Positions 536 to 64,000 of a DNA stretch of 64,000 nucleotides are shown one piece after another. Each line of letters starts with the position of its first letter. Within the stretch, counting starts at the first letter, position 1. This DNA comes from Tribonema minus. Lineage: Eukaryota; Sar; Xanthophyceae; Tribonematales; Tribonemataceae. The notes below the pieces were generated by a model. That model did no database searches, had not been told where the DNA came from, and was given only the letters and a program-made list of their open reading frames with translations. A program made the position numbers and the translations under genes. Location: positions 992,001 to 1,056,000 of the forward strand of contig JAFCMP010000013.1 of the NCBI GenBank assembly GCA_017506865.1, read 5' to 3'.

Positions 536-600
536 CGCGAGTACGAGGCACGCACGCGCGGCGACGCGACCGCCGGCGTCGTCAACAGCCCGCGCTCCAG
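536..600 (+). CDS. Possible upstream ATG9 exon
   Basis: An acceptor-like GCGCAG precedes 65 bases that read REYEARTRGDATAGVVNSPRS plus two bases and end at CCAG/GCAAGT, a GC-type donor. The phase matches the ATG9 exon at 1597. Degraded CCAG-GCAAGTACAC copies follow near 661-680, 737-756 and 765-785, which is how true exon ends in this window usually look. No ATG is present in this frame, so another exon would still be needed. This is inference from phase and copy pattern only. Confidence 0.25.
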
Positions 601-1389
601 GCAAGTACACGACTGTACCATATCGCATATGCTGTACAGTCCTGTACTGTCTTGTACTGTACTGGTCCAGGCAGGCACACTGTATTGCACTGTCTCGATT
701 TCGGATACACTGCTGTACTGCACTTTCAGCACAACAGCCCGCGTTCCAGGCAAGTACACTTCTCTACTGGTCCAGTCAAGTACACTGCCGTACAGCACTT
801 TCCCAAAGTCGGAGTCAGTGTGCCTCCGGAGCTGCGCGCCTTGTACGCAAAGCGGTCCCCGTGGAGCGCTGCCATGTGCGGTTTTCACGCAGCCGGCGCT
901 GCATACTCACTCACTCGCGCTCGCTTTTCCAGCGAGCTGCGCGCACAGCCGGCACGCCGCGCGCTTACGCGCCGCGCACATTCGGCTGCGCTTGCCAACT
1001 CAAAGGGTAGAGACGACGGCATGGGACTCAGCTGTCGTATCATATGAAGCGAAGAAGGAAGATAAGTGGCTCGCTTTCTTGAGACCATGTGGGACGTTGT
1101 CGGAGTTCAGCACGCGACGCTGCATTGCTCAGCAGGCCGCGTGGCCTCGGCGGCCTGCTGCGCTGAGAGTTGCTTCAGTTCCTCGCAGTGGGATCACCGA
1201 AACATCGTTGAAGCCCAACACGCGGCATTGAAGTTCAACACGCGCCGCTGCTGCACCGCTCAGCAGGCCGTGCGGCGTTGTCTTGAAGTTGAATGAAACG
1301 TCATTGAGGTTCAATGCGCGCGCGCCGCTGCACTTTTCAGCAGGCTGCGCCGCCTTGTCGTGAGGTCGGATGAATGAATTGTTATTGAA

Positions 1390-1515
1390 GTTCAACACTG
1401 AAGTTCAACACGCGCCGCCGCTGCATCATTGCTCCGCAGGCTGCGCGGCCCCGTTCACCTGCCAGTCGGGGGCCTTGGGCGCGATCTCGGCGACGTCTCC
1501 GCAGGCCTTCGCAAC
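1390..1515 (+). repeat. Decayed copy of ATG9 exon start (upstream of 1597)
   Basis: It carries CTCCGCAG followed by GCTGCGCGGCCCCGTTCACC and a diverged version of the GGCCTCGGACGCGGTCTGGG stretch. This matches the acceptor and first 100 or so bases of the exon at 1597. It lies in the same strand and order, directly upstream of the real exon. Confidence 0.8.
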
Positions 1516-1596
1516 CTCATTGTCATTGTCATTGTCAAAGTTCAACATGCATCATCAAAGTTTAACACGCGTCGTCGCTGCGCCGTCGCTCCGCAG

Positions 1597-4500
1597 GCTG
1601 CGCGGCCTCGTCAACCTGCCGGGCGGGGGCCTCGGACGCGGTCTGGGCGATGTATCCGCAGGACTGCGCAACCTCATCGGGCGCATAGACCAGCGCGGGC
1701 CGGGGCAGGGGTATCAGCCGCTCAGCGGTGGCGGCGGCAGCGGCGGCAGCGGCGGCGGCGGCGCCGGCGGCGCGCTGGGGGGGGGTCAGGGGTTCCCGCT
1801 GTTCACGGGGGAGGAGGAGGGGGAGGGGGGGGGAAGCGAGGTGCGGAGTGAAGATGCGGGGGGGTCACGCTACCACCTCATGCAGGACCAGCCCGCCGAT
1901 AACTGGGTGAGCGCTGCGCGCTTGGTGCAGAGTGTTGATCATTATTGGGTCAAAAGGTCTTGTAGGCTTTTAGTGTGGAGGGTTTGGTTAAGGCAAGCGC
2001 TGACAGCAATTTGCAGAGTGTCAATCATCATAGCGCTGTGGTTTGGGCAAGCGCGCTGCCACCTCTTGCAGGACCGGCCCCGCCGACAACTGCGTGAGAA
2101 TGCGCGCGTGGTGCAGAGTGTTGATTGGCATAGACACAGTGGTGCTTGTCACGGAGTTAAAGTTGATAGGTGAGCTCTCAGTGTTGAGGTCAGCGCGGGC
2201 GTGCTGCCGCCTGGTGCAGGACCCGTGCGCGGACGACTGCGTGAGCGCACAGGCTGGGGGACGATGACCATGTGCGCCAGGCCTCAATACTTCCTCAACG
2301 TAGTTTCTGATACCCTATGGTGAATAGCGCGTTGCCATAGACTACACTGCCGTCGAGAAACGAAGCAAGAGTACAAAACCTCGCGGCTGTAGATCTATGG
2401 GCACATGCTGACATGCTTCAGTTTCTGTTTGAGAGCACCGCACCTGAGCCATGCAGGAGCACACTGCCGGCGACCGCGCGGATGGTATTCTTGCACGAAA
2501 GGCGTCGGCTGTACAAGACAACTATTCAAGAGGCTAGGGGGTCAGCGTTGGGGTTAGGGTAAATATTAGGTTTGAGTTAGGTTAGGCTCACGTAGCACAG
2601 GACCGCCACACAGCCGGGGACAATCACCGCAGACGCTCCATTGGCTCTGGCGATGAAGATGGCGGCGGCAGTAAAACATCAGCAGTTTCATGTCGCGGAA
2701 CGATCGTGTTGCGATGCATACGGCCGCGTGCTCAGGGTTAGGGTTAGGGTAAGTAGTCAATGGCGTTCCTGGCGTTGCCACGCTGCATTTCGCGTATGAT
2801 CGTCGCAAAAGTTGAAGTTTCGCTTCAGCGTGCGCCGGGAGTCGCGCGTGCATCCAGTAGGGTTTGTAGTTCAAAGGCTTTCCTAGCGCTGCCGTGCTGC
2901 ATGTCGCGAATGATTGTCGCAAAGGTTGAAGTGTCGTTTCAGCGTGCGCTGGAGGTCGCGCCCCGTCACTGCACTTGCTCTGCCCACGCCTCGTTGTCTG
3001 CACGCACGCATGTATGCATGTCATGTTTAGGCAGTGTTTGTCTTTTCATGCACATGTGTACAATATACTTTGAATATATATATGTGTGCGAGGAATACGA
3101 GGCACACGTGGCTTGTCCTTCGTACTTGTTCAAAATTTGAACCCGTGCCTTCCTCTTCACAGCACCCAATGAAGCTTCTCGCTTGCTCACTGTGGAGTCG
3201 TACAAGCGCTCAGCCTCCGCCCTTTCTCAACATGTGTATGTATGTATGATGTGTGCGCGCAGGGGGCCTGACGTCTGGGCATCAGGTCACCTGCCGTTTG
3301 CTCCAGTGCGAGTCTCCGCTTCCCCAGCAGTATCAAAGACAGCACGTATGCGCGTGGGCGCTGCGCACTTTGGGTTAGGGCTAGGATTAGGTCTCGTCTC
3401 TCTCTCGGTGCATGCCTCACTGTCAGCATGTATGTGTGTATAATGTGTGCGCGCAGGGGGCCGTGCCGGACCTGGACGTGTTCTTCAGCGCCATGTACGC
3501 CTTCTACCAAGGGTGAGTGAGCGCTGCCGCAGTGATGAGCCGTGCTGCTTCTGCAGTGCTCGCCGATTTACGCGCTGTGCGCCTCAAAGATACAAACGCG
3601 TTCGGCGGTGGCCTCCGGAGAAGCTACCGATGACAGTTGGTGCTTCAATGTGTCTGCGAGCGTGTGTTTCTTCCCAAAGTGCTACCAACTTTAAGAGCCC
3701 GACACAGTTCTTCGGCGCCGTGTACGCCTCCCGCCAAGGGTGAGCGAGCGCTGTCGCTGTGATGTGTCACGAGTTAGCAGCAGTGCTCGCCGATGTACGC
3801 ACTGTGCGCCTCAAAGATGTAGTCGCGCTCGGCGGTGGCCCTGGAAAAGCTACCAGTGACAGTTGGTGCTCAAACATTACCTGCATAGTGTTTGTCTGTT
3901 TCCCGTTTGCTGCCAACTTCAAGTGCCTGACAGTTCAGACACCTTATTGTTTAGCAAAACCTCAGCTCACGCTGGCAGTGCTGTTGAACCCCCCCCACCT
4001 GGCCATGCCGTTGACTTACTATTACCGTGCTGTATCTCGCATGCACACGCCGCGTGCACGTCTCAGCAAGGGCTTTGAGACCATCGCCGCGCACGGCGTC
4101 GCCAACCTCGTCATCCTGGGCTTCACCGTCTTCTTCAGCACATTCCTCTTTGCGTTCGTCGATTGGGGCGCGGTCATGAAGTGCCGCGACGAGGCGACGT
4201 GCCTGCCCTTCAACCAGTACCTCAGCAGGTCAGCACTGGCTTCAACATCCTGAGCAGTAAATTGGAACTTTTTTCTTCAGTGGCGCCTGCGCTTTTTTGA
4301 CAAGCGTGCCTGCGCTTCAACCACTGCCTCAGCAATTAGTGGTGGTGTAAATCCTGATGAAATAGTTAGAATTGTCAAGAGTGCCGCGACGAGGCGACGT
4401 GCCTGCCCTTCAGCCACTACCTCAAGAGGTCAGCGCTGGTTCGGAATCCTGATGAGTAGAAGTCATAACTTAAATATCTTTCTTTGTTTGGGACTACTCG

Positions 4501-7500
4501 TCAGCCTGCTCTTCAACCTGTACCTCAGCAGGTCAGCGCTGGTTCGAATCCTGAGCAGAAAATTATAATTCTTTTCTCACACTGGTGCCTGCGCTCTTTT
4601 GACGAGGATGCCTGCCCTTGGACCAGTACCTTCGCAGGTCAGCATTGGTTCAAATGCTGATGAGTGGAACTCTGAACCAGTGCTTTTTGTTCTCTGTGCC
4701 TGCTTGAACAGTAAATACCTGTCCTACCCTTCAACCAGTACTTCATCACGTCAGGCCTTATTTGAGGCAGATGATGCCAGCCCTTCATTTTTTTCCGCGA
4801 GACGTGCCTGCCCTCAAGGCAACCCTACCCCTAACCCTAACCCTAAGTAACTCAGCAGGCCAGGCTTCGGATCTGATGCCGTGATGCCATAAGGTTTGTT
4901 GTCTGGGCATTGGATTGCAGTGCATTGCAGAGTGGACATTGAGGCTAGAACTGAGTATAACCGACGACTTGATATTTTGAGGGGCGCTGTTCAATGAAAA
5001 AGGGTTGAGAGCCAGCAGGTCAGGATTGAGAGCGAGGGCCGGAATTTTTTTATTTTCACCGCGTTCAGTGCGGTCCGAATCAGTTGATGCTAGCGCTTGT
5101 CACTCGTCCTTGCCCCCAGTGTTTGTGGCACAACCTCGGCTCTGGTTGGTATTATACTTGAAGTAGCACATGGGCAGGCAGGCTAAACAACCTGGAGCCT
5201 CCATGTCGCCACATGTATTTGTTCAAAACCCGCTCATCACCTTCTGCACTACGCGCATTCAAGAGCGCTGTCGCTAGCTGCTAAACCTCTGTGTTGGGCT
5301 GCCGGCTGGAGCTGGCCTACCAAACACGTGAGACCTGTTCTTACTGAACACCCATGCCTCGAACGCTAAAAGCTTGCACACAGAAGTCTTTTCCCCTGTT
5401 GTGGTTATGGTGGCACTGTCTGACTCGTGGCCAATGACTGCAGCAGCGGCGACCACGGTTACTGGTGGAAGGCACTTGCGGCTAACCATCCCTTGTCACC
5501 TAGAGCTCAACGATCTTTTGATTCGTTTTTCATTAAGAAGAGCGAGCCCAGGACCGATGTGGTGACCCTCACCCTGACCCTGACCCGCTGCGCAACCTGG
5601 GCTTGAGAGCCAGCAGCAGGGGTCGAAAGACAGGGGCACAGCAGTTGAAGAATGCTGATTTTCGAGTGGATGACATGGCCTTCTGTGCTGACACTGCAAA
5701 GCACAAAGGAGAAGAAATAATGCGAGATGTTCAGATATATTCTGCCAGCGACAGAATGCCCACAAAAAGAAAACAAAAATGGAGTCGTGGTTCCGGACGC
5801 TGTGCGCGTTCTGTTGCGGCGCTCAGCAAGGGGGATGAGCATTTGCTTCCTGCTTTGACCCAAAGCGGTGTCAGCATACGCTTAAACTCTTTGACCCTGA
5901 CGTAACCTTAAGTCAGCGCTCAACGCGCTCCCAGCCCTACGCTCACTGTGTGACCACAGCGCTGACCGACGCGCTCCCAAGGTGCTGCAGCAAAGCGGTG
6001 TACCACCCACCTACACAGATTGCAGCGCTAGCCCTAACCCTAATACAGCGCCATGGGCGTTGCCGACCCTGAGCTCACTACGCGCCTGTGTAACTACAAT
6101 ATTGGTTGTGACCCTATGTAACCATAACACAGTCAGCGCCACAGGCGCCCCCAACCCTGAGCTCACTGCGCGCCTGTTCGCTGCTGCTGCCTGAGCGATG
6201 CTGCAGCAAAGCGGTGTACCACCCCGGGGCGTTCCACCTGCTCGTGTGGCTGTACTTCCTGCTGTTCCTGACGTACTGGCTTTGGAGCGCGCTGTCGCTC
6301 TGGGGCACGCTGCGCGACTCGCTCGAGATGCTCTACCTCTACAGGGACAGGCTCAACATCAGGTAATATGACTATTGAGTTATTCACTACAATAATCCGT
6401 CGACGCACAATAATATTGCAGATCTAGGCTAAGATTCAGGTTTTGAAAGTAGGGTAGGGTTATAGTTGACACGCTCGAGATGCTCTGCCTCTACCGGGAC
6501 AGGCTCAACATCAGGTATGTGTAGTGTAGACGTCAGGCATGTAAAGTGAAGACCTTAGGTATGCATAGTGTAAACGTAGCATCAGGGTTAGGCTATGTGG
6601 CACGCTGCGCGACTCGCTCGAGATGCTCTGCCTCTACAGGGACAGGCTCAACATCAGGTATGTATGGCGTAAACATCAGGTATGTACAGTGTAAACCCCC
6701 ATTAGGGTTAGGCTCTGGGGCACGCTGCGCGACTGACTCGCTTGAGATGCTCTACCTCTACAGGGACAGGCTCAATATCAGGTACTTCGAAGTCTTTCAA
6801 TTTTTCACTACCGTGACGAGTAATAACATGCCGTGTGAACTTTGGGGTTGGGTTGAGGGTAAGGGGTCGACTCGCTTGAAGCGCTGCACCTTTACAGGGA
6901 CAGGCTCAACATCAGGTATGTATGGTGTAAACATCAGGTTTGTACAGTGTAAACCCCCATTAGGGTTAGGCTCTGGGGCACGCTGCGCGACTGACTCGCT
7001 TGAGATGCTCTACCTCTACAGGGACAGGCTCAATATCAGGTACTTCGAAGTCTTTCAATTTTTCACTACCGTGACGAGTAATAACATGCCGTGTGAACTT
7101 TAGGGTTGGGTTGAGGGTAACGGGTCGACTCGCTCGAAGCGCTGCACCTCTCAGGGACAGGCTCATCATCAGGTATTCATAGTGTAAACCTAGCATGAAA
7201 GTCAGGCTGTGGGGCACGCTACACGGCTTGCTAACATGCTCTACTTCTACAGGACAGGCACACCATCAGGTACCACTATGCATGTTTTCCGTATGAAAGA
7301 GGTACCTTGAGGTACAGGTGTAAACCAAGCATGTCCGCTCGCTCCCTCCCCCCCCCCCTTCCGCTGAGCGTTGCAACACAACGCGATCTGCGCACGGTGG
7401 ATTGGATTGTCGACTGCGCGTTAAAACCGGCGTGTTGCCTCCTGTTCACGAACATGGCGCTTCAACCCGTGACTCTCCATACGCTGCGCCACACCTGACC

Positions 7501-10500
7501 CCATTCCACTGTATGCGCCGTGCAGCCAGCGTGACCTGCGCCCTGACCCTAAGCTAGAGTGGAGCGTCGTCGTGCTGCGCCGGGGGGCGTCAGTATATCA
7601 CTGGAGTATGGTTTGGAGCGGTGCACTTCACTTCGAATGCCTGTATCGAGGCTGCCACGGGCCGCGCTGAGATAGTTTTGCAGGCGACCGTGCCTTACGA
7701 GCCGGCACATCAACCCTCGTCACACCGCTCATCCCCCCTACCCCCAACCCCAACCCCACCCCTGAGCGTTGCGGTGCAGTCAGCGCGACCTGCGCACGAC
7801 GGAGCGGAGCTTACATACGGTTGCACTTCTGAATTTAGCGTAGCTCCGCTCACGCTGCAACGCTGAAGTTTTTGTCGTCATCCAGTGTCACACCACGCGC
7901 TTGGACCTCTTTGCCCCCCCCCCCCCCCATACACACACCTTTCCCGAGCAGCCAGCGTGACCTGCGCACGATGGAATGGAGCGTCGTCGTGCAGCGCTTC
8001 CTGGCGCTGCAGAACACGGGGCGGTACCGCGTTGCCATACACAGGCGCGACCTGACGGCGCACGACATTGCGAGGTGCGTAACAGCAATTCTCGCCTCCA
8101 AGTTAGCGTCGACTACGATTAGATTAGCACAACACTTAAAAGTAACAGCCTTTTCGGATTCCAAAAGCCCATTACTGGCGAACGCTCATTTTTGTACATG
8201 ACAGAGCCGATGTTGTCTTTCATGAAGGAACTTGTATCAATAGTTGTAGCTGCATTTATGACCCTGCCCCTTACCCAACCTTCAACACACGGCGGTACCG
8301 CGTCGCCATACACAGGCGCGACGTGACGGCGCACGACATTGCGAGGTGCGTGACGGCGACGCTTACCCCAAGTTGGCGTCTACTTCAGTTATATTTGGTT
8401 ACACAATGCTGATATCTGGCTACACAACACTAAACAGTAACATTATATTCCTATGCCAAAGCTGGCGCTGGCAAACATTGATGTATGTAATGGATGTAGT
8501 CCTCTTCTGAGACATGCTGTGTTTCCTCAACTTGTGTCAATAGTTGTAGCTGTATTGCTGACACTACCTTCTACTCAATCTTCAACGTGGGGCGGTACCG
8601 CGTCGCGATGCACAGGCACGACCTGACGGCGCACGGCATTGCAAGGTCTGTGACACGATGCTCGCCTCACCGTCTATCCGGACTCCACAAGGCCACCACC
8701 ACTAACAATCAAGGGTATTGTACAACCGCTCCTCTCCAGGATTGTCCTTGATGTTTGTCGTTCTTTGTTAAATCAATAGTTGTTGTACTTACCGTAGCCC
8801 TAACCCAACCTCTAACCGTTACAGGCGCGACCTGATGGCCCATGACATTGCGAGCTCAGACAGTGAGACGCACCCTAACCCTAATCCTATCCCGAGCTCC
8901 AGACCTACTTGACCTTAAGAGGCGGAACCCAGCCGCTGAGAGCATTGCGAGGGCAGACAATGTGATACGCGCGAAAGCATGGCAGCACCAATCGACAATT
9001 GCAGTTCGCGGAACGCGTCATTGTGCTGCAGTTTGAAGATGCGGTCTAAACTCTTAAGGTACACATCACAGCAGTCGAGCATCGGTGACAACGACACAGT
9101 CTGAATATGTGAACCACAGCGCAACAGGCACCAAGGTTACGAACTGAAACAGTGGCAGACGCACCAAAGTGATAGCCGACCAAACGCCATCATGCACTAG
9201 AAACTCAGGCGCAGCATGCTGCGGTCAGTTAGTAAGAGAAACATAGTTCTTGATGCCATGAAAAAAATGGTCGCTTATGAGCACACTCCGCCATTGAGCG
9301 ATGTTCGGCCCGGCGCAGAGTGCATCGCACCACTCTGTTCATCCACCGCAACAATCGCATCACACGCATGCATTTGCCCAACACCTAACCACCTGGTCCT
9401 CTTAAACTTTCCTGTCCTGTACGAACTATGTGCACTGCCGCCTTGCACCCCGGTCTTTGCTCCCCGCGCCAGCCGCATTCACTGCTGCTGAAGCACCCCC
9501 CCCCTACGCCCATCGCCCCCTTGCCCCCCTTTTTCCCCCCCTCGTGCCAGCTGCATCACCACTGCTCCCCCCCCCCCCCGGCTCCCTGCCCCGTTCCCCC
9601 CCCCCGTTCCCCCCTCACGCCAGCCGCATCATGCGTCGGGAGAACTACATCATCGCGCTCGTCAACAAACGCGTCCTGCAGCTGGGGGTGCCGATACCCA
9701 GCCTGGGTAGCATCCTGGGTGGCGGTCGCGCGCGCGCGCACACGCACGCGCACGCGCGCACGCCGCGCCTGACCAAGAGCCTCGAGTGGAGCCTGCGCTT
9801 CTGCGTGCTGAGCCACTTGTTCAACCACAAGGTGAGCGGGACATCAACATGTGACGTTGCATGTGTGCAGGGCAGCGCAGCATTCCAGCAACACTTCTCG
9901 AAGTACCAGGTACTGTAGTGCGGTTGTCAGTGCAGAGCGAGAGGGATGGAGAGCCTGTCGGACGAAGTCACGTGCTTGAGCTCGAGCTGGAATCCGAGAC
10001 AGTTCCGCGCTTTTGAAAGGATGCACACACAGGCCAGCGCAAGAGCGCTTCCGTGAGTCGACTGCAGCGCTCCTCGGCCGCACACAAGTTCAACCCGCGC
10101 AAGCAGCGCTTAGCGAGGTGCACAGCAGCCGCAGGAGGTGAACGCTTGCGGCAGAGGAGAGGGCCACAATCCGCGACACCCCATTATAACAGCAGCTCCG
10201 CTCATCGCGTAACACTGCCTCCACGCTCCCCTCCCGCAGTTTACGCTGCGGCGCGACTTCCTGGAGGACCGCGCCGCGCTCCAGAGACGGTTCCTGGCAG
10301 TGGGGCTCGCGCAGCTGGCGCTCATGCCGTTCCTTCTGCTCTTCATGGTCATGTACTTCTTCCTGCAGAATGCTCAGGTATGACGGACGCAACCGCACGT
10401 GCGCACTTCAACTCAGCGAGTTGAACTCATCCTCACTGCGAAACCAGCATGGCCACAGGTTTTTCAGGTGCTGTATCGCAATGACCTCGATGCGCGCGGC

Positions 10501-12424: not shown

Positions 12425-12469
<45 letters not shown>

Positions 12470-18173: not shown

Positions 18174-18209
<36 letters not shown>

Positions 18210-36237: not shown

Positions 36238-36395
36238 TTGAGAAACGAATCAAAAGATTGTAGAGCTCTAGGTGACAAGGGATGGTTAGCCGCAAGTGCC
36301 TCCCACCAGTAACCGTGGTCGCCGCTGCTGCAGTCATTGGCCACGAGTCAATCAGTGCCGCCGTAACCACAGTAGGCAAAAGACTTCTGTATACT
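36238..36395 (-). repeat. Dispersed repeat of about 150 bp, copy 2
   Basis: It is very close to the 5374 copy over its whole length but in the opposite orientation. It lies just downstream of the 32848 gene's stop codon. Confidence 0.85.
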
Positions 36396-37555: not shown

Positions 37556-37591
<36 letters not shown>

Positions 37592-47159: not shown

Positions 47160-47490
47160 GTGCGGCCAAAAAAGCGCTCGATCCCCTGGTTTCAAGGCCA
47201 TCGTGGATGCGCTGCAACAGCTCCGTGACCGATGGGCTGGCGGCTAAGGACCTGCTCGATCGGCCTGAAAACACATTCGTCCTGGAGCCCATTGCCGCAG
47301 CACTCGAAGATGTGGAACTGAGCCCACAAGCAACGAAGTCACATGGTCGCTGCTGCCACGCCGCCGCAGCTCCGCAGCACAGGTTCAGCACCTGCTTCGC
47401 ATCTCACTGTGATCACCTAGCAGAACGCTGCGGGTCACTACCGCGAACTGCCCCACATAGGCTTCTTGCAGGAGCTGCAGAGGTTCAACA
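47160..47490 (+). repeat. Diverged inverted repeat, right arm
   Basis: Partner of 46540-46985. The spacer is about 175 bp. The two arms could form a long imperfect hairpin in RNA transcribed across them. Confidence 0.75.
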
Positions 47491-47792
47491 ATAGATGGAG
47501 AGACCATCTGACGCAACCTCCGTGCAAAGCCGATCCGGTCGTCTTGCGAGCTCAAAGGCTGCAAACACATCGCGGAGCAACTGGAGCACTCACTAACAGA
47601 AGTTAGCCCCAACATCCGAGCCTCGGTGGCACGGTGTCGCTCGGTGGCACGGTGCCAAGTTGATGATTTTCTTTTTCCCAACTGCAACTACAACTTGAAG
47701 TTTAAGTCTAGAGTTGCTGGACCTGCGCAGCTGCAGGAGGACAGGGTCGGGGCTGCAGCAGAGCTGCAAGCTTCTGACTTTCATTGCTGCAG

Positions 47793-53700: not shown

Positions 53701-56700
53701 GACGGCAGTGCGCGCGCTGCGGCGTGCGCGCTCAGCGGCGTGTGAAAAAGTGGCTCTGTCGCGCTTTGAAGCGTCCGCGACTGTGTCGTCGATGCCTGTA
53801 CAGTCGGGGAGGGGCAGCGACGTCATAGGCACGCGCGCTGGCGGTCGGAAGGGGAGCAGCAGGTGTTGCCGCCGACGCCCCTGCAATCCCACTCCGCGCC
53901 GCAGCTCAGATGTGGACGCGCTTCAGCGCCGGCGCACCCGCTCTGCGCTCACCAGCGCTCAACACACTAACAGTGCTCAGCGCTGAACAGGCGCGCAACG
54001 CTCAACACGGTGCTGAACGGTGGACGCACTGACAGTGCTCAATGCTGGACAGCGCCAGCGCTACGATAAATTGGTTGGTTGATTGTTTCTCTGGCCCCCT
54101 TGACAGGCTGGCGGACGTGTTCGGCGACGACGCGATGCGGTCAGCAGCGCTCAGCACACCACCAGTGCTCAGCAATAAACAGGGCGCTCCACGTTTGACA
54201 GTGTTTGACACCTTGACAGCGCACTTGACGCACCGACAGTGCTCAATGCTGGACAGCGCCAACGCAATCATCGATTGGTTGTCTGACTATCTGCTGCCCC
54301 TCTTGACAGGCTGGCAGACGCGTTCGGCGACGACGCCATGCGGTCAGCAGCGCTCAACACACCGACAGCGCTCAGCGCTGACCAGGCGCGAAGCGCTCAC
54401 CACAGTGCTTGACGCTTAACGTCGCTTGACGCACTGACAGTGCTCAATGTTAGACACCGCCAGCACTTTGACAGATTGGTGGACTGTTTCTTGTCCCTGC
54501 GACAGGCTGGCGGACGCGTTTGGCGACGACGCCATGCGCTCGCTGTCGCCGGGGTACTTCAGCACGCTGCGGCCGGGGGGGCGCATCGGCTGGCAGGAGG
54601 CGACATCTGACACGGAGGTGTGCAGCGGCGGCCGCGTACCTGTTGACTTTGCGAAAGCGTAAGACCTGACCAACAGTGCAGCAGAAGCATGTAGCTACTT
54701 GAACGAAAGCACTTCGGCCTCTGTAGTTCGTTATACGCTCATAGCGCGGTTGCTGTCGCCGGGGTACTTCAGCACGCTGCGGCCGGGGAGGGCGCATCGG
54801 CTGGCAGGAGGCGACGTCCGACACGGAGGTATGCATCGGCGCCGCATACCTACCTGCGTTTTGGAAGCGTATGCCTTTTCCAACACTCTAGCAAAAGCAT
54901 GTAGCTACCTAGTGAAAGCACGTAGGCCTCCGTAGTTCGCTATTTACTCATAGCGCGGTCGCTGTCGCCCGGATACTTCCACACGGTCCGGCCGGGGGGG
55001 GCGCATCGGCTGGCAGGAGGCGACGTCCGACACGTAGGTGGGCAGCAGCGCTACTTACTTTGTGGAAGCATATCGCGGCTTTTATGAAGCACCTGTTGTC
55101 AAATGCACCCGCTGCTCCTTAGCCCTCGGTACACAAATGCGTGAGCAGCTCATAGAGCTCTGTATTTCGTTCATCAAAGTTCGGTGACTATCACCTTGGG
55201 TGCACGTCGCTGGAGCTGCTAGTGCTAAGCTCAATGTCAACTCTGAAATCGCATTCTTCAAGTGGTTGAAGTGAAATCTAATCCAGCCTTGTGCATTTCT
55301 ATCAAATTTTCTGATTCTTGTATCGTCCCGTGCGCTGCAGGCGTCGCTGGCGGTTGTCGTGGAGGACCGCGGAAGTTGCATACTTCAAGTAGTTGAAGTC
55401 AACTCCAACCCTGCCTTGTGCATGTGTATTAGATGTTTTGAATTTTCTATCGTCTGTGCGCCGCAGGCGTCGCTGGCGGTCGTCGTGGAGGACCTCGACA
55501 ATTGCGTACTTCAAGTGGTTGTAGTTGACGTGATCTCTGAATAGAAAATTTCCTATCACCCGCGTGCTGCAGGCGTCGCTGGCGGTGGTCGTGGAGGACC
55601 ACGGCGGTGCGGCGCAGCGGCGGCGGCGCAGCGGCCCGCAGCACGAGGTGAGTGTGACTCGCGCTGCCGTTTTACTCAGACTTTCAAGTATGTACTCTAG
55701 AGTCGTGACACGAGTCTAAGTCGTACTGCGGCGGCGGCGCAGCGGCCCGCAGCACGAGGTGAGTCCGACTCGCACTGTTGATATACTCAGGCTTTTCAAA
55801 CAGTATGTTGCTGATCTACTGAAGTGTGAAGACTATACTCATGGCGCGAGTCCGACTCGCCTTGCTGATGTTCTCAGGCTTTGGAGTAGTGCAGACTCGT
55901 GACCTGAGTCTGAATCGCACAGCTCTCTGGCTCAGACGCTCAAGGAGTTGAGCTGAGACTTGTGAGGTGAGTCCGACTCGCGCTATGCCCTTTGACTCAG
56001 AGACTCAGGCCAACTGAGTCTTGTGAATTGATGGTGGGCAGATCAGATCAGATGCTTCAGCTGATTCTCTCACGAACCTGTGGCATTTGGACCTCGCCAC
56101 ATACTGTTTTTGTGACGATCTGGAAGCCTACGTGGCTGACTATAACAAAGGATGCCTCCGATGACGTCACCCTCTCGGACTTGCTCAAAGCAGGGGCAAT
56201 GCCTAATCACGATGGCACAATCACTGTAATCGATGCGGTCCCGGTATTTCGGATCAATATTCAGTGAAAAATGAGCTTCGGCTGATTCTACAAATTTTGC
56301 AGTTGCCGTTTCTTTTAAAAGAGCTACAGCTTCTATCGGAGAATACATTTTTAAATCGATTTTTTTATTAGCTTGTTCGCGTCTTTTTGATATTTTTTTC
56401 ACATAAAATTCTAAATAAAATAATAAAAGAGAATTTAATCCACAATTGAAATTCCCATATTACGTGCAGTACCCTCGATGATTCTAATAGCGCCATGTAC
56501 TTCAAGAATAGTCAGCTATGTCAGCTTCCGGATTGTCACAAGAAAAGAACGTGGCGAGGTCTGAACGCCGCAGGTTCGTGAGAGGGAGGTGCACACGCGC
56601 GGACAGTACCTCCAAACCGTTGCCGCATCTCGAATGCAGGAGTATCTGGTGGTGCACCACTTGCCTGGCGCCTTCCGAGGCTGGGTTCTTGAAACAGGCG

Positions 56701-59700
56701 CCTCGCCCTGGGTTAGGGTTAGGGTTAGGGTTAGGGTCGCCGGCTTGCGCGCCCTGGAGTGAAAGGAGAGGAAGGGCCGCGTTATCGACGTCCATCTAGT
56801 CGGGGCGCGAGACCCCCAGACGACTGCTTTGGTTGCCATCTGAGCAAGTGAATGTTAAATGTTTGCACACATAAGTCTTTGAATCCTGTGGATACGATGG
56901 CACTGTTTGCCTCGTGACCAATGACTGCAGCAGCGGCGACAACGGCTGCTGGTGGAAGGGCTTGCAGCTAACCACTCCTTGTCACCTAGAGCTCTACGAT
57001 CTTTTGATGCGTTTCCATGACCCTGGGCATTATGGACACAAGGCAGGTGTGCAAGGGGCCAGGTGGTACAGGCCATAACGAGCTTGTGCGGCAGAGCAAC
57101 ATTCAGAAAGTTGCTTGGTGGTGGCCGAGTTGTGCCTTTGAACTTCTGCTGAGCGACGTGAAGTCCTGTTTGAAGCTCCGGTCTGCTTCGATTTGGCTGC
57201 CGTGCCGCAGCGCCTGTTGACCGAGCAGCAGCAACCGCACCTGCTGGGGGCGCCCGTCTGTGACCGCCAGGAGGAGTAGCTCTGGTCTGCTTTGGTTTGA
57301 CTGCCGTGCCGCGGTGCCTGCTGACCGCAGGGGGGATGGCCACGTGCGCCTACAAGCGACGGCTGAGCGACCTGCTCCCTTGCTTCACATTCACAGAAAC
57401 ACTCTGAAGTTTTGGAGCAGAAGCAAGTGCATCTGCTGAGGCCGCCCGCCAGGAGGAGTCGCTGCGCGCGCCGAGGCGTGACGTACCCTCATTTTACACC
57501 TACCCACTGCGCTGTAACCGAACTGCGCTCTCCCTAAAGCGGAAGCGACTCGCGTACTGCTGGTCACAGCAGCTCAGTTGCCCTCCATGCCCGGTTTCTC
57601 ACCACAGGAGGAGTGGCTGCGCGCGCTGAGGCGTGACCCCGCGGCACTGGCCAAGATCTCCGCGCAGCCCTTCTGGCAGAAGCACGTGTGGCTGCTCGAG
57701 CAGCTGCGCGTGCTGCAGCTGCCGCACGGCGCAGGGCTGGAGGTGAGCGCGCGTGAATTCACCTGTGACTGAAACATTCAGAAGTGAAAAGGTATAGTGA
57801 TGGCAGCTGCGTTTGAGAAGTGAAAAGGTATGGCGATGGCGTGCTGCAGCTGCTGCACGGCGCGGGGCTGGAAGTGAGTGTGCATGAATTCACCAGTGAT
57901 CAAAACAGTGATCAAAAATAGTGAAAAGGCAAAGTGATGGCAGCTGTGCGTGCTGCAGCTGCCGCACGGCGCGGGGGTAGAGGTGAGCGCGCGTGAATCT
58001 ACCAATGATCAGAATGTTAAAACACTGAAGAGTTATAGTCATGGCAGCTGCGCGTGCTGCGGCTGCCGCAAGGCTCGGGGGTGGATGTGTGAGCGCGTGA
58101 ATTCACCAGTGACTGAAATGTTAAAAAGGTGAAAAGTTGAATTGATGGCAGCTGCGCGTGCTGCAGCTGCTGCCCTGCGCGGGCTGGAGGTGAGCGCGCG
58201 TGAATTTACCAGTGACTGACACGTCAAGAAGTAGTGAAAAGTGACAATGATGGCAGCTGCGCGTGCTGCGGCTGCCGCACGCCGCAGGCTGGAGGTGGAT
58301 GCGCATGCATTCTCCAGTGATCAAAACGTGAAAAGGATTCACTCGTGATCAACCCTCGAACCAAGATATTTTCACAAGCAGCGTTTGGCAAGCAGGTCGC
58401 CAGCAATGTCATATCCTTGCTCATATGCTTCAGGGTGCCATTCCTTGGCGGAAAGTGCTTGGGTAGAAGTCATTAAGTCAGCTCTGCCTCCTCCGTCAAT
58501 GTGCAAGCTTGCATGTGCATCCCAGCGCAGCAGTGCAGCGAGAGTCGAGCAGTTGTCTCACTTCAATTGCACCTTCATGACGGAAACTTGCGCTAGAGTG
58601 ACAGGCGTGTGGCTGTTTCTTGCTGTTTGTCCTCTGCAGGCCATGCGCATAGAAGTGCGTCGGGAGCACCTCCTGGAGGACTCTTTCTCTCAGGTTCGCA
58701 AACACCTTCCGTCGTGCCGTCTCCCAGTGTTGTTGGGTCAAAAAAATTATCAGCAGTCAGCTGCTGTAACAAATATCTGCTCACTCCTTAACTCGGCAGT
58801 TGAGGACTGTGCAGTACTTCACTTACAGTCTGCATGCGCATCACAGTGCGTCGGGAGCACCTCCTGGAGGGAGTCCTTCTCTCAGGTGCGCCTGCCAGCT
58901 TCAAGTTTACTGAGCTGTGAAGCTCAAAGGAAGTCGCCCTCGGTGATGGTCGGCCGATAGCGCTAAACTTTGCGCAACTGGGTGCAAGTCGCACGAGCCG
59001 TGCTCGAAGTGCTGCGTAAAGTTCAATCTTGCAGCCAGCAGCGACAAAAGGCTGCGGGGTGGATTGCACGTCCATTGCTAACTTTCAACTTCTGTTTTGA
59101 AGTGTTGTGTAGATTCTCTTTGTGGTCGGTTACAGCGGCGATAGACCGCACATTGCTGAACTTTCCAGGTACTGCAGATATTTATACACTGGTCTGCGCA
59201 TCGACCGACTTGGCAGTGGGTCAACGGTATCATTTTGCGCGTTGGGAGCTCCACTGTCAGTGCTGTCTGCGTACAGTTGCACTGCTGATGGCCCACCCTG
59301 GTTGAGCAGGTTAGACATCATCAATGTCGAGGACTGATGGGCGCTCTCGAGCTTCAACCGCGTGGATGCAAGCTCCAACAACTGACGGAACTGAAACCCT
59401 GGTGGCTCCGTGCGCAGTCTGCCGGCAAGCTGGGCTGTCTGTCGAGCGTTTACTTAGGGTTAGGCTAACCCTAACCCAACATTAAACCTCGAGCGCGAGT
59501 GGTCCATGCACACCTACCACTTTGAACAGTATCCTTTGGAGCTCACATCTATATACTGCTGAAGTACACGGCCTGCGCGTCCCTGATTAGCTAACCCCCC
59601 CCGCCGCCGGCCCCCGGCTTTACGGCCCTCGCCTGACAGGTCATGTCCACGCGCACCGGGGAGCCGCGGCCTCGAGCGCGAGTGGTTCATGCACGCACAA

Positions 59701-62700
59701 TACGCTAAAAAACACACTGTGGTGTTCACATCCATCTATATACGCCAAGCAATAATTTGAAGTGCACGGACTGATGTACACGGCCCGCGTGCCCCCAGAC
59801 TGCGACAGGTCATGGCGATGCGCACCGGCGAGCTGCGGCGGTGGCTGCGCCATATTCTTCATGCCTTCTGCTTGAGCTCAGTGCTCACATCGCAACCCCG
59901 CAAGCGCTGCTCGAATACGCCCCTACCTCAGCAATCACGCCTCACGCCGCGGCAACGATCGCGGCGTCTCAACTCCCCCCCCCCCATCCCCCCCCAATAT
60001 GACCCTGGCCCGACAGGTCATGTCGATGCGCACTGGGGAGCTGCGGCGCGCTGGCTGCGCGTGCAGTTCGTCGGCGAGCCGGGCGTCGACGCCGGCGGCC
60101 TCGGGCGCGAGTGGTTCACGCAACACATACTTCTATGAATACTGCATTTTGAAGTTCACATTTACAGACTGCTGATGTACGCGGCTCGCGCGTCCCTTGA
60201 CTGCGGCAGGTCATGTCAATGCGCACCGGCGAGCTGCGGCGGTGGCTGCGCGTGCAGTTCGTCGGCGAACCGGGCGTCGACGCGGGCGGCCTCGAGCGCG
60301 AGTGGTTCATGCTGGTGGCGGAGGCGCTGTTCGACCCGCAGGCGGGGCTGTTCTGCGCGGCGCCGGCGACGGGGGCGTTTGATATCAACCCCGCGAGCGG
60401 CCTCGCGAACGACATGCACCTCGAGTACTTTCGCTTCACCGGCAGGTCAGCGGCACGCCTGTCGTTGGCTTGTTGAAGTTGTGTGTATGAAGCATATGTT
60501 GAAGTATTGATTGAACTTTCAAGAACGTTGATATTTTTTCTTATTGGAATAGGGCTGCTGAAACCTACAAACACGTGAATTCGTCAATCACGCATGCCCT
60601 GTTGACTGTTAAGGGGCAGGGGTGGGCAGGTATTGCTGCTGGCAACGCCAGAGATAGGGGACTGTGACAAATAGCACTCTCTAGGCAGCCTGGCCTGTGA
60701 GATGCACCACAAGTACTTCCTGATTTATTGGCAGGTCACTCGCTTGCGTGACTTGCTGCCAGTTTTGGGCTCAGTGTGAGATGTTTGTAGGCGGCATGCG
60801 TGCTCGCTACGGCGCGCTGCTGTTCAGCGCACCAGGCTCAGCAGAAGCCTGAGTCGGCAGTGCGCAAATCATGACTTTTGAGCGAAACAATAGCACAGCT
60901 GCCGCATCGCGCGCCCCCCTCCCCGTCCTCGCGTCTTCGTGCGCCTCTTGCTGGTTCTTGCTATGTGGCTCGCGTTACGATGTGCATTTCGCTGACATTC
61001 GCCGGCACAAAAAACATAGGGGTTGGCAAATTTGCAGGAGGCTGACAACGTCCTCTAGTTTCCCGCATAGATTTCCTGTATACTTCTGTGGTGTGTTTCT
61101 AGGGTCAAAGTTGAGGTCAGTGGCATCGCAGCTACATTAGCGCACCGCGAGCGGTATCGCAGCTGCATATGTGTGCGCGCCGCGATACACCTCATGGGCT
61201 ACCACGACCACAATGAGGCTGACAACTTCATGTTCTCGCCTTTGCTGCCGTGCTAACTGTGCGTGCAGGGTCCTGGGCAACCTCCTTCTGGAGCAGAGCG
61301 TCATACCCTACCGCCTCAGCCTGCCGCTGCTCAAGCACTTTGTCGGCGCGCGTAAGTCTCGCAGAAACTTCCGTGGCCGCGCTGTCATTGTCATTTACAT
61401 CACGGAATTCACTGCAATTACGCTGAATTCGAAACACGTTGACATATGTACATGCGCGCTACATACCCGCCCGCGTAAGTCCCGCCGGCAGACGCTGTCA
61501 TGACTGCGCATTTGCATTTGCAGAGAGCCTCCTTCAATGTGCTTCAAAGTATGTTATATGAAGTACATTATTTGCAACAGCGTATTCCGCAAAGCTTTCT
61601 TCAATATGCTTTGAGGTATGTACTTTGGTTACAACAGCGTACCCCCATCACCAGAAATCTTTCTTCAATATGCTTCCATGTAATTCAAGAAGTGCATGCC
61701 TAAAAAGCGTACTTCCACATAGTTTTCTACAATGTGCTTCGAGGTATGCACGTTGGTTTCAACAGCGTACCCCGCCTGAGCCTGCCGCTGGTAAAGCACG
61801 TCGTTGACGCTCATCAGTCGTGCGTCAGATTTTGTGGTGACTGCCTAGATGAAGATCTGAAGTCTTTCTGCACCTTTTTGCACCGACATACCTGGCTGCC
61901 CCAGTTTGCCGCTGAGCTAGCATCCTGATCTGGCATCTTGTTGGCCTTTGCCAGGGGTCAGTGAATGCTTTCTCTGTGGCTAAGAAGCATTGTTGGCTGA
62001 ACACTCGTTGCTCTGTGACCATTGAGGATTGAGGCAACTGACGTAGGCCTGTCACATTGATTGCAATCGCTCGTCAGTCAATCCTGCTGGGGCTTGATGC
62101 CTTGTGCTAGAGCTGAGTGTGGAATGCTACGCACACTTCAAAGACATCAACCACTCATTTTGAGCAGTGTCATAGCTCACTGCAGCAACGGTTTCATGGC
62201 TGCTGACCTCCAGTCGCTCTTGGTTTTTCCCAAGGTCATTGGGTTGGTGATTTACAAAACAAGGAGCGTTATTTCCGCCTCACAACACAATATTTCTTAC
62301 ATCTCGCTGAGCAACTGCAGTGACATATCCCATGGCCTAGGTTCTTGGTTCCCTAAGTCATTTGGTTGATTATGTGAAGAGCATTCCCCCGTCTCAGGGC
62401 TCAATCCATCCGCTGCGCAATGGCCTCGTTGTCGTCCATCGCGCCCCGTCGCAGCCATCACCTTCAGTGACCTAGAGCTGGTGGGACGCAAAAACATTAC
62501 CCACTCACTTTGAGCAGTGTCCTAGCTAACCGTGGTGACTTTTTTATGGCTGTTGACCTGGGCTCTTGGCTTTTTCGAAGTCATTTGGTTGGTCATTTTC
62601 AGAACGAGAGCGTTCTTTCCGTCGTACGGCGCAACTTCTCAGATTTTGCTGAGCAATGCCCAATGCCTCGTTGGCGTGTGCCGTGCGCCGTCGCAGCCAT

Positions 62701-64000
62701 CACCTTCAGCGATCTGGAGCTGGTGGACGCGGAGCTGTACCGCCACCTCAACTGGCTCAGGACGCACTCCGCGGACGGGTGAGCGCTGCCACGCAGTTAG
62801 CTGCTGAGCAATGCTGCACGCACATATAAACGCCCATCGCTGAGTTGAGAGCGCTGCCATGCTGTGCGTACATGATGCATGTTGGAAGGCTGGCGCTGTC
62901 GTGCAGACTAGATGCATGCATACCGTGCTGTGCGAGCACTGCCGCGCACACATGCCTACTTACATTCTCTGCAGACTTGAGCGCTGCCATGCATACATGC
63001 TGTGCATCTGTGGGACGCAAGCACTGTCGTGCAGAGATGCATGTAAATTCTGCGGACGGACGAGCGCTGCCGCACAGTCGCTAGAGCGCTGCCCTATGCG
63101 CATACGCACTGCGGCGGCGGGTGAGCACAGCGGCACAAATAATGACTCTCAAAGCCCTGAGCCATCGAGGGGGCGACGCTTCCACCGCGTAGCCCTGAGG
63201 AAGAGAGTTGACGTCGGGTACAGTAGTACCAGAGAGTCGACGAGAAGCAGTGGTAACACAGCATGTATCTGAATGCACACCCACTCTGCAATGGGTGAGT
63301 GCCGAGTGCTTTATGATCTCCAATTTAGACGCCAAAGGCAGCCCTGGTCAGTGCATGTGCGGTGTCGGCGGTGTCGCCTGAGCAGTACGCATGTATGTAT
63401 GTATGGATGGATGGATGGCGTTTGGCATGACTTCTCGCTGCGTGTCACCGCACGGCGCCGCTGGTCACCGCGTCCTGCCCTAACCCTAACCCTAACCCTA
63501 ACCCTAACCCAAGGCAGCGCAAGCAGGTCGAGAGGTGCAATTGCGCGGCGGGATTCTGTGGGTCGTGGCAAACGCGAGAGGATGATGCGACACCACTCAA
63601 ATGGTCACTGCGACCCGCCAAGTCAGCGCGAGCGGGTTGACTACATGGTGCCATCGCTCAGTGGGACTCTGGTCGCGGCAAACGCTATCCGAGGTCACAG
63701 CCGGCAGTTTCTTGGCTTGTTTCAGAAAATGCATGCTGAGCACTGCTATTTCTACGCGCGCGCCAGGCTGGGGCTGGACTTCACGGTCGTCTCGGAGCAC
63801 TTTGGCCTCAAGGAGGTGACGGAGCTGGCGCCGGACGGCGCACACGTTGCCGTAACCGACGCCAACAAGCACGAGTACCTGAAGCTGATGCTCAGGCACA
63901 GGTGAGCGCCGTGAAAACTTCAATACCAACCTCACCTCACAGGAGTTGAGGTTGCGTCACCGGCGCCAACAAGCACGAGTTCCTCAAGCTGATGCTCAGG
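47793..64000 (+). CDS. Transmembrane HECT E3 ubiquitin ligase with RanBP2 zinc finger (partial)
   Basis: Exons: about 47793 (or 47931)-48017, 48940-49042, 50097-50344, 51353-51452, 52185-52439, 53105-53694, 54506-54617, 55573-55647, 57608-57742, 58640-58693, 60210-60445, 61269-61351, 62697-62778, 63767-63901. All junction phases agree. Order: a Cys-rich PSI-like segment (TCASYTTCSRCVGIWNTKTV, PGCMWCAAQ) with NRT and NST glycosylation sites; a membrane helix YASYLLVLALASVLCCCCGL; a cytosolic tail with EDELLRPLLDAE; a RanBP2-type zinc finger WRCGVCYFDNRPRSAQCDLC; a long low-complexity linker; then the HECT N-lobe (IEVRREHLLEDSF, MRTGELRRWLRVQFVGEPGV, LVAEALFDPQ, LLLEQSVIPYRLSLPLLKHF, PITFSDLELVDAELYRHLNW, LGLDFTVVSEHFG). 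The catalytic C-lobe lies past the window end. The 5' end and any signal peptide are unresolved. The zinc-finger exon uses a GC donor. Confidence 0.88.
49425..49985 (+). repeat. Five copies of the 50097 HECT-gene acceptor and exon start
   Basis: GCAGAGCACCTGCGGCGCCA and variants occur near 49419, 49548, 49673, 49795 and 49923, each behind a C-rich tract. The true exon begins at 50097 (ACGCAG/AGCACGTGCGGCGCCA). The last copy continues through CGTACCTGCTCGTCCTCGCC, CTTGCGTCCGTGCTGTGCGT and could encode most of the membrane helix. Confidence 0.92.
50345..50950 (+). repeat. Copies of the 50097-50344 exon end in a G-rich intron
   Basis: GAGGCGGTGTTCAAGACCGG, TTTCAG/GTGAGCGCTGCTGC variants occur near 50397, 50555, 50635, 50720, 50815 and 50930. 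The first large unit (50430-50580) repeats about 150 bp of the exon, including CGAAGATGAATTGCTGCGGC. Runs of 8-18 G separate the copies. Confidence 0.9.
52555..52610 (+). repeat. Copy of the 52185-52439 exon end
   Basis: GGTGGCTGGCGAGCCTGATG, CAG/GTGTGGTGCGGC parallels the real GGCTGGCGAGCCTGACGCAG/GTGCG. The surrounding intron text (GGGCTGCGCGGCTCAGGACG, CTATGACGTGCTTGATGT and a version near 52643) is also duplicated. Confidence 0.8.
52893..52975 (+). repeat. Copies of the 53105 acceptor and exon start
   Basis: CTCGCCAAACGCTCCGCAGC, GGCAGAAGGCGGCGCGGCGC at 52901-52940 matches the real CTTGCCAAACGCTCCGCAG/C, GGCAGAAGGCGGCGCGGCGG. A shorter AAGGCGGCGCGGTG follows at about 52950. Confidence 0.9.
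54085..54360 (+). repeat. Two copies of the 54506 acceptor and exon start
   Basis: CTTGACAGGCTGGCGGACGT, GTTCGGCGACGACGCGATGC (about 54100) and CTTGACAGGCTGGCAGACGC, GTTCGGCGACGACGCCATGC (about 54303) precede the real GCGACAG/GCTGGCGGACGCG. The intervening CACTGACAGTGCTCAATGCT spacer is repeated four times. Confidence 0.92.
54745..55040 (+). repeat. Two copies of the 54506-54617 exon end
   Basis: GCTGTCGCCGGGGTACTTCA, GCACGCTGCGGCCGGGG, then GGCTGGCAGGAGGCGACGTC, CGACACGGAG/GTATGC lies at 54748-54832, and a more decayed version at 54960-55038. The downstream intron text is also repeated (CGTATGCC-TTTCCAACACTC against CGTAAGACCTGACCAACAGT). Confidence 0.92.
55335..55505 (+). repeat. Two copies of the 55573 acceptor and exon start
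   Basis: GCTGCAGGCGTCGCTGGCGG, TTGTCGTGGAGGACCGCGG (about 55336) and CCGCAGGCGTCGCTGGCGGT, CGTCGTGGAGGACCTCG (about 55463) precede the real CTGCAG/GCGTCGCTGGCGGTGG at 55567. Confidence 0.92.
55728..55765 (+). repeat. Copy of the 55573-55647 exon end
   Basis: GCGGCGGCGGCGCAGCGGCC, CGCAGCACGAG/GTGAGTCCGAC repeats the true end at 55620-55655. The motif GTGAGTCCGACTCGC then recurs several more times to about 55985. Confidence 0.88.
56067..56143 (+). repeat. Inverted repeat arm left of the plastid insertion
   Basis: TCTCACGAACCTGTGGCATT, ACCTCGCCACAT, TTGTGACGATCTGGAAGCC, GGCTGACTAT pairs with the reverse complement of 56508-56584 at roughly four of five positions. Confidence 0.88.
56259..56494 (-). 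other. Nuclear plastid DNA fragment (rpl11 end - rpl1 start)
   Basis: This AT-rich island in GC-rich DNA reads on the minus strand as the last 19 codons of plastid ribosomal protein L11 (GAIRIIEGTARNMGISIVD, stop at 56435). A 32-bp AT-rich spacer follows, then the first 48 codons of ribosomal protein L1 (MKKISKRREQANKK, SPIEAVALLKETATAKFVES, HFSLNIDPKYRD). The frames are still open and codon use is plastid-like, so the transfer is recent. rpl11 followed by rpl1 is the order on red-lineage plastid genomes. The L1 similarity stops abruptly at about 56259. The piece is not a working gene here. Confidence 0.92.
56508..56584 (-). repeat. Inverted repeat arm right of the plastid insertion
   Basis: Partner of 56067-56143. 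The arms enclose 364 bp, two thirds of it plastid DNA. Their peptides in corresponding frames are similar (SRTCGIWTSPH and SRTCGVQTSPR). Confidence 0.88.
56710..56736. repeat. Interstitial telomere-like repeat
   Basis: More than four exact TTAGGG units in a HECT-gene intron. Confidence 0.93.
56868..57018 (+). repeat. Dispersed repeat of about 150 bp, copy 3
   Basis: It has the same core as the 5374 copy (CCAATGACTGCAGCAGCGGC, CCTTGTCACCTAGAGCTCTA, CGATCTTTTGAT) with moderate divergence. It lies in the HECT gene intron downstream of the plastid insertion. Confidence 0.82.
57830..58300 (+). repeat. Five copies of the 57608-57742 exon end
   Basis: GTGCTGCAGCTGCCGCACGG, CGCGGGGCTGGAG/GTGAGCG recurs near 57841, 57950, 58051, 58158 and 58265, about 107 bp apart. 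Each is followed by a version of GCGTGAATTCACCAGTGA, so exon end plus about 90 bp of intron was copied as a unit. Confidence 0.92.
58822..58895 (+). repeat. Copy of the 58640-58693 exon
   Basis: CTGCATGCGCATCACAGTGC, GTCGGGAGCACCTCCTGGAG, then GGAGTCCTTCTCTCAG/GTGCG repeats nearly the whole real exon, with one 3-bp length change. It could encode a mutually exclusive alternative of the HECT entry segment. Confidence 0.85.
59490..60130 (+). repeat. Copies of the 60210 HECT exon start
   Basis: Blocks near 59485-59510, 59635-59690, 59800-59845 and 60005-60122 repeat CGACAGGTCATGTCGATGCG, CACCGGCGAGCTGCGGCG and CTCGAGCGCGAGTGGTTCAT. The last spans about 110 bp of exon homology but is out of frame with the real exon. 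Confidence 0.9.
61770..61820 (+). repeat. Copy of the 61269-61351 exon end
   Basis: CCGCCTGAGCCTGCCGCTGG, TAAAGCACGTCGTTGACGCT parallels the real CCGCCTCAGCCTGCCGCTGC, TCAAGCACTTTGTCGGCGCG. An intermediate shortened trace (TACCCGCCCGCGTAAGTCCC) lies at about 61464. Confidence 0.8.
62425..62500 (+). repeat. Copy of the 62697 acceptor and exon start
   Basis: CGCCCCGTCGCAGCCATCAC, CTTCAGTGACCTAGAGCTGG, TGGG matches the real CGCCGTCGCAG/CCATCACC, TTCAGCGATCTGGAGCTGGT. The upstream text (ACCTGGGCTCTTGGCTTTTT, CGAAGTCATTTGGTTGG) is also duplicated at 62210-62250, 62335-62370 and 62555-62595. Confidence 0.88.
63478..63510. repeat. Interstitial telomere-like repeat
   Basis: Five and a half exact CCCTAA units in the intron before the last visible HECT exon. 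Confidence 0.95.
63955..64000 (+). repeat. Copy of the 63767-63901 exon end, cut by the window
   Basis: CGTCACCGGCGCCAACAAGC, ACGAGTTCCTCAAGCTGATG, CTCAGG repeats the final third of the exon that ends at 63901. Confidence 0.88.

Follow-up and report, generated by a model that had tools for sequence, protein, structure and literature searches.

How does an intron become long? The question is raised by a stretch of 64,000 nucleotides from the alga Tribonema minus (C13:992001-1056000 of a 158-Mb genome; hereafter the window), in which the introns of the first gene, ATG9, hold pieces resembling the ends of their own exons. Intron lengthening is usually put down to transposons. A first-pass annotation of the window had described decayed copies of adjoining exon ends, splice sites included, throughout its introns. 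We confirmed that the phenomenon is real and extends beyond the window, affecting fewer than half of the introns tested. Many introns contain direct copies of junction-straddling segments, of about 80-270 bp, and owe part of their length to them; recurrent tandem duplication is the best reading of them, one that we consider probable.

Copies of exon edges in ATG9 and in kinesin genes

When the window was compared with itself by BLAST, local repeats less than 1 kb apart were direct in 113 cases and inverted in one. They clustered at about 1-17, 27-28, 43-45 and 49-64 kb, and much of 18-27, 29-43 and 46-49 kb held few or none. ATG9 was identified by homology to PDB entry 7d0i (five PDB sequences were matched), and its spliced frame is free of stops. 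Between its exons and their flanking introns we found 40 same-strand matches and one antisense match; 25 of the 27 downstream matches came to 4 nt or less from the 3' end of the exon, and the 13 upstream matches all started at exon base 1 or 2. In a first count over the scanned stretch, 13 of 16 repeat families touched a listed exon edge; among the other three, one adjoins a presumed, unlisted donor at 3512, a second is next to the array of the exon that ends at 12217, and the third falls past the last listed exon. Copies share a breakpoint register at several junctions, and the array of exon 6207-6362 also contains a copy of copies, seen as a 258-bp repeat. The features, all on the forward strand and in window positions, are as follows.

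4066-16288, forward: ATG9 gene, ten reference exons (7d0i homology, E 3.9e-64; open spliced frame)
4066-4228 (start not fixed), 6207-6362, 7952-8074, 9624-9831, 10240-10377, 11435-11535, 12032-12217, 13236-13347, 14993-15129, 16163-16288, forward: ATG9 exons
4305-4748 (4305-4334, 4380-4424, 4504-4531, 4609-4637, 4723-4748), forward: donor-side copies, 3' end of exon 4066-4228
5991-6008, forward: acceptor-side copy, 5' end of exon 6207-6362
6468-7269, forward: seven donor-side copies, 3' end of exon 6207-6362, two of them within the 258-bp repeat
7379-7810, forward: three acceptor-side copies, 5' end of exon 7952-8074
8284-8854, forward: three donor-side copies, 3' end of exon 7952-8074
11728-11748, forward: donor-side copy, 3' end of exon 11435-11535
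12364-12387, forward: donor-side copy, 3' end of exon 12032-12217
12992-13140, forward: two acceptor-side copies, 5' end of exon 13236-13347
13481-13989, forward: four donor-side copies, 3' end of exon 13236-13347
14532-14854, forward: three acceptor-side copies, 5' end of exon 14993-15129
15207-15391, forward: two donor-side copies, 3' end of exon 14993-15129
15498-16043, forward: four acceptor-side copies, 5' end of exon 16163-16288
16419-16661, forward: two donor-side copies, 3' end of exon 16163-16288

Kinesin exon borders were set by protein homology in 30 loci and eight longer regions, using a self-written spliced aligner and a kinesin profile made from 12 kinesin pieces of the same genome. 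After removal of overlaps and doubtful exons, the final sample comprised 79 introns (9 of ATG9 and 70 of kinesins, with homology-based exon borders) in 27 loci, or about 26 genes, L037 and L040 being one gene. This count takes only introns that are GT-AG or GC-AG, measure 100 bp or more and lie between predicted exons no shorter than 30 bp; L026, L027, L032, L034, L035, L036, L038 and L039 were excluded as overlapping others, and the HECT gene, the light-harvesting (LHC) loci and the remaining window genes lie outside it. One LHC locus, L010, enters the edge-copy scans, the neutrality tests and the breakpoint and telomere statistics. The edge-copy scan covered 160 edges (80 donors and 80 acceptors, with L010 added), and a copy was taken to reach the edge if it came within 15 nt of it.

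Local repeats within the 79 introns were direct in 212 cases and inverted in one; an earlier count over 40 kinesin and LHC loci, some overlapping, had given 98 direct and one inverted, with direct repeats in 19 of the 40. Edge-anchored families were present in 34 of the 79 introns, in 14 of the 27 loci (27 of 70 introns without ATG9), so that exon-edge copies within introns were borne out both in ATG9 and outside the window. The word 'throughout' was too broad: 45 introns had no such family, and three of four arbitrarily placed 10-kb stretches contained no direct local repeat at the search setting used. In all, 46 families were edge-anchored (25 donor, 21 acceptor) and 20 were interior. Of 80 donors and 80 acceptors, 26 and 23, respectively, had one to seven copies, the number per boundary first described. 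A copy comprises the end of an exon (a median of 43 bp) together with the splice site and some of the intron next to it, and lies to the intron side of the exon itself. Spacing between nearest neighbours had a median of 186 bp and was mostly 80-270 bp, but its 5-95% range of 85-546 bp (n=222) is wider than the 80-260 bp claimed at first.

The affected introns were also longer. Median length was 941 bp with edge families and 544 bp without (p 1e-5), and 828 against 544 bp in kinesins alone (p 1.5e-4). Edge families span 15.3 of the 61.4 kb of intron, and deletion of all intron bases within them brought the median to 459 bp, a low estimate of the earlier length because one original unit per family is deleted as well. 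These data indicated that edge families can account for the length excess of affected introns.

Two observations stand beside these. The splice consensus of the 79 introns is CAG/GTRAG and GCAG/G; the pyrimidine tract is weak and C-rich, and 70% of the introns have G at acceptor position -4. In the ATG9 intron, a 119-bp piece at about 5415-5533 is an 89% match to an intron in a different gene, and a dispersed repeat with a recurring reading of about 'VxNDCSSGDxGxWW' occurs at 5424-5468 (forward), 36300-36347 (reverse) and 56911-56961 (forward).

Orientation, specificity and decay of the copies

Across the 160 edges, 107 same-strand copies lay within 15 nt of the edge, 7 same-strand matches did not reach it and 4 matches were antisense. 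In an earlier scan the sole antisense edge match came from a low-complexity exon (L030). Antisense copies are thus rare, and introns elsewhere in the genome resembled their flanking exons above controls; these were the two refuting tests named in the first-pass annotation, and both came out in favour of its claim. The common orientation, and the layout in which exon ends are copied downstream and exon starts upstream, were seen as the first-pass annotation had reported them, but they are not independent observations because both are automatic for tandem duplication across a junction.

The copies bear AG and GT and the genome has some dispersed repeats, as introners or other splice-site-carrying mobile elements would lead one to expect. 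However, the copies match their own exon and not other genes: exon edges searched against foreign introns gave one match in 153 pairs, and the intron-intron matches between different loci numbered 18, the 15 shown spanning 23-119 bp. The dispersal among genes that defines introners was not found when tested, and this explanation, which the first-pass annotation had also set aside, is almost certainly wrong. Whole-exon duplication followed by decay to fragments would likewise place exon sequence in tandem within introns, as is found, but the downstream matches keep the 3' end (25/27) and the upstream matches the 5' end (13/13). When exons of at least 200 bp were examined, a restriction made because short exons contain both ends, the wrong exon end gave no match and the own end 25 at 39 edges. 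Copies holding both exon ends were not found at these 39 edges, and we rejected ordinary exon duplication as extremely unlikely, again in line with the initial view.

Neutrality was tested on 94 of the 107 copies, those coming to about 4 nt from the edge or closer. The GT of the copies was kept at 0.846 against 0.894 for exon bases (p 0.14), and copied AG at 0.881 against 0.902 (p 0.57). Divergence between copy and exon at codon positions 1, 2 and 3 was 0.060, 0.067 and 0.140; the higher third-position value is expected because the real exon, too, drifts at synonymous sites. Between neighbouring copies it was 0.115, 0.134 and 0.185, which at positions 1 and 2 is roughly double the divergence between copy and exon and fits copies taken separately from a constrained source. 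The net length change was not divisible by three in 12 of 62 copies (HECT, the L028 donor and one L030 exon were left out of this count). An intact GT in 38 of 52 donor copies and AG in 32 of 42 acceptor copies might suggest alternative or decoy splice sites under selection; yet GT and AG are retained no better than adjacent exon bases, divergence at codon positions 1 and 2 is that of neutral sequence, frame-breaking changes are present, and a close paralogue of L010, L009, has no array. We therefore rejected a function for the copies as very unlikely on the neutrality tests and the frame-breaking changes. Collectively, these data showed that the copies decay neutrally, without being maintained, and that only the real exon is under constraint.

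Identity dropped with distance from the exon at 13 of the 17 edges having at least three copies (mean rho -0.50), which is expected if newer copies are laid down beside the exon. The decay with distance noted at first sight thus stands as a tendency and not as a rule.

The light-harvesting paralogues L009 and L010, which share one exon at about 90% identity, gave a view of one array by comparison. L010 has two acceptor-side and three donor-side copies reaching the edge; L009 has no local repeat, and its acceptor region is in unduplicated form. At the acceptor-side breakpoint of L010, exon ATCCCC is joined to intron CCCCTTCT with a CCCC microhomology. The comparison suggests that arrays can arise, or be lost, within the divergence of L009 and L010, and the unduplicated order of L009 reads more simply as the older state. 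A pre-duplication state in a relative was found in this one case, on the acceptor side.

L009 and L010 belong to a divergent light-harvesting gene pair that occurs at two loci, L003/L009 on C79 and L004/L010 on C1; the two loci are about 90% identical over one exon per gene, with little similarity in the flanking introns. The family (PF00504) has 92 matches in the genome. The best PDB matches of two light-harvesting proteins were mostly chains named ACPI, CAC, FCP or similar, with 9vfj at the top; such names denote chlorophyll a/c types of the red lineage, which these relatives therefore look like. The phycoerythrin family PF02972 gave no match, in a search whose control gave none either, which does not show its absence.

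Edge bias and a proposed mechanism

We found that edge-anchored families made up 46 of 66 (0.70), or 34 of 52 (0.65) in kinesins. As a control, fake edges were set in 71 pseudo-introns of 780 bp from three window stretches and four 10-kb stretches, of which the gene content is partly known. These yielded 8 pseudo-edge and 18 interior families, along with 8 inverted matches against one in the 79 real introns, and the edge share differed from the real one (46/66 versus 8/26, Fisher 9e-4; kinesins only, 0.007). Interior families occurred at about 0.33 per kb in real introns (20 in 61.4 kb) and pseudo-introns alike, indicating that the excess is located at true exon edges. The equal interior density also means that a background of random events exists, and it favours an account in which tandem duplications occur at random everywhere and edges look special either through the selected exon half or because introns were once shorter than the unit.

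Simulations bore on this account from both sides. Models of untargeted duplication that included neutral decay and exon constraint, used the same detection and began at copy-free intron lengths (34 values from the 79-intron count, one off by 4 bp) gave edge shares of 0.28-0.40, or 0.37-0.45 with observed spacings, and the addition of homology-driven gain and loss gave 0.26-0.45. Such models, with the decay bias included, fall short of the share observed (against 0.45, p 4e-5; kinesins, p 0.0024). When simulations were started from introns of 50-100 bp, the edge share rose to 0.93-1.0, but the final medians were 204-266 bp and not 941 bp, and the residual length is 459 bp. Short ancestral introns thus reproduce the bias and not the lengths; they were rejected as a full account and kept as part of random duplication, which we regard as unlikely, although with some weight. 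Initially short introns are a possible cause of the edge excess. We think that the edge bias is real but not proven, its cause being either more events at the edge or introns that were once shorter.

Recurrent duplication across junctions, as the first-pass annotation had proposed, draws on the direct tandem copies, their common breakpoint register, neutral decay, the one paralogue pair and the length excess. Several points weigh against it. Interior families are 20 of the 66, and the 459-bp residual understates the earlier length. The splice sites in use are taken to be the exon-proximal ones by homology. Intron-side identity of the copies was 0.66-0.70, where about 0.81 was expected from twice the exon-side divergence, suggesting that some units hold little intron or that introns evolve faster. 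Exon constancy alone, through homology-driven re-duplication or a selection ratchet, was rejected as a source of the edge bias, since two simulations gave 0.26-0.45 and left it unsupported at the settings tried. Four of the eight young pairs listed (L019, L031, L044 and L045) are simple two-copy cases with breakpoint overlaps of -14 to +2 bp; there was little microhomology in such pairs, and one polarised breakpoint in all. Telomere hexamers were found at the free breakpoints of 9 of 49 edges against 4.4 expected (p 0.017), and scattered telomere-like TTAGGG/CCCTAA runs of at least 9 bases occurred 32 times in the window against 0.6 expected under a first-order Markov model (for example at 6584-6592, 26948-26976 and 63478-63510), but the link to copy breakpoints is weak and suggestive only.

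On the reading of recurrent tandem duplication, events would arise mostly and independently from the exon edge, newer copies tending to lie nearer the exon. The exon would be the constrained source, and splicing would ignore the outer decoys, up to seven at one junction. Exon definition, in which an exon is recognised as a unit by its splice sites (PMC3488318), may explain this tolerance: the innermost acceptor-donor pair around an exon of about 130 bp would be the one recognised, and the internal kinesin exons have a median of 132 bp. If decoys are tolerated, junction-straddling duplications would be close to neutral. More speculatively, the duplications might come from repair of staggered breaks whose ends are filled in and joined, some junctions receiving telomere-like filler. 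The edge excess would come from more breaks or duplications there or from shorter introns at the time of the event. As to the claim that the splice site moves or stays, staying is the part upheld, as the exon-proximal site fits the protein in ATG9 and the kinesins; moving is not, and homology suggests that no new spliced intron was made in these genes. A wider proposal is that junctions are hotspots of small tandem duplication, where a process tied to transcription or splicing breaks or re-copies DNA, so that the exon sheds copies of its edges outward and these, not mobile elements, set intron length in the affected genes. We put this forward tentatively, as a possibility with less than an even chance of being right.

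Other window genes and comparison with known systems

Arrays of the same kind were seen or presumed in other parts of the window, where coding segments other than those of the named genes were located by codon usage alone. A HECT ubiquitin ligase (PF00632) lies at 60-64 kb.

26993-28024, reverse: TFIIS/RPB9-type zinc-ribbon gene (Pfam PF01096), last exon 26993-27211, with two acceptor-side copies at 27534-27593 and 27953-28024; exon edge by eye
43051-43972, reverse: donor-side array of coding segment 43935-44108, copies near 43051, 43267, 43464 and 43664, presumed real edge at about 43898; exon by eye
49519-50784, forward: presumed arrays 5' of the HECT domain, acceptor-side 49519-50162 and donor-side 50300-50784; exon edges by eye
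54091-55600, forward: presumed arrays, acceptor-side 54091-54540, donor-side 54536-55050 and acceptor-side 55246-55600; exon edges by eye
57675-58323, forward: presumed donor-side array; exon edge by eye
59644-60121, forward: acceptor-side copies of the HECT exon (PF00632) starting at about 60210
62455-62489, forward: acceptor-side copy of HECT exon 62697-62779
63951-64000, forward: donor-side copy of HECT exon 63750-63901, cut by the window end

Coding segment 43935-44108 (reverse) gave no protein family match in the family search. The acceptor-side copies in 54091-54540 end in a donor-like GTCAGC, so that each, bordered by AG and GT, resembles a mini-exon. An AT-rich insert at 56070-56515 (reverse), near the HECT gene, lies between the arms of a 77-nt inverted repeat (56067-56143 and 56508-56584). 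It can be read as the terminal part of rpl11 (TIGR01632, E 2.9e-5) and the first part of rpl1 (TIGR01169, E 1.6e-10); each fragment scores under the whole-protein cut-off of its family. The insert is apparently plastid-type DNA in the nucleus.

The ATG9 and kinesin arrays matter because each added piece is a copy of the adjoining constrained exon, and its source can be named, counted and roughly dated, so that intron growth becomes directly measurable. They raise the question of how the spliceosome handles up to seven similar decoy sites per junction, and also whether splice junctions might be hotspots of mutation, which can be tested. Among the titles listed in searches of the open-licence literature, none reports that introns gain length by repeated duplication across their junctions, which is weak evidence of absence.

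Introner elements, for example those of Amoebophrya (PMC7789003), are likewise repeats within introns, but their families are dispersed between genes, whereas the algal copies match their own exon. Interstitial telomeric repeats can be inserted during break repair, and at a few horse loci they came together with direct duplications of the target (PMC7215372); the combination of telomeric repeats and direct duplications is alike, although hexamers mark only 9 of 49 edges in the alga. Small tandem duplications are made by CST-guided Pol alpha-primase at breaks with 3' overhangs in mouse and human cells (PMC8355091). These are direct, as here, and need no sequence repeats, and CST, a telomere complex, would suit telomere-like filler at junctions; however, the overhangs are about 50 nt and the word 'intron' is absent from the main text, whereas the algal units are larger.

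Closer parallels come from intron gain. In the Rogers type, a duplicated exon segment bearing AGGT gives an intron (as told in PMC4974935; Drosophila cases in PMC2891723), again by local tandem duplication with splice motifs. There an exon-only duplicate creates the intron, whereas in the alga existing introns grow: the units span real junctions, and a median of 459 bp of intron remains when they are deleted. In the potato RdRp gene, a tandem genomic duplication that crossed an intron-exon boundary gave rise to an additional intron, and an 83-bp tandem duplication also lies inside an intron (PMC4974935). There as here, the duplication crosses the boundary and the copy inherits splice signals, and direct local copies spanning exon and intron are what we found. 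In potato, a single event produced a new spliced intron, and the exon portion of the copy stayed exon; in the alga there are several events per junction, on donor and acceptor sides and in many genes, and the copies are absorbed into the intron. Single junction-crossing duplications are thus known, and it is the recurrence, the presence on both sides of the exon and in many genes, the absorption into introns and the edge bias that look new.

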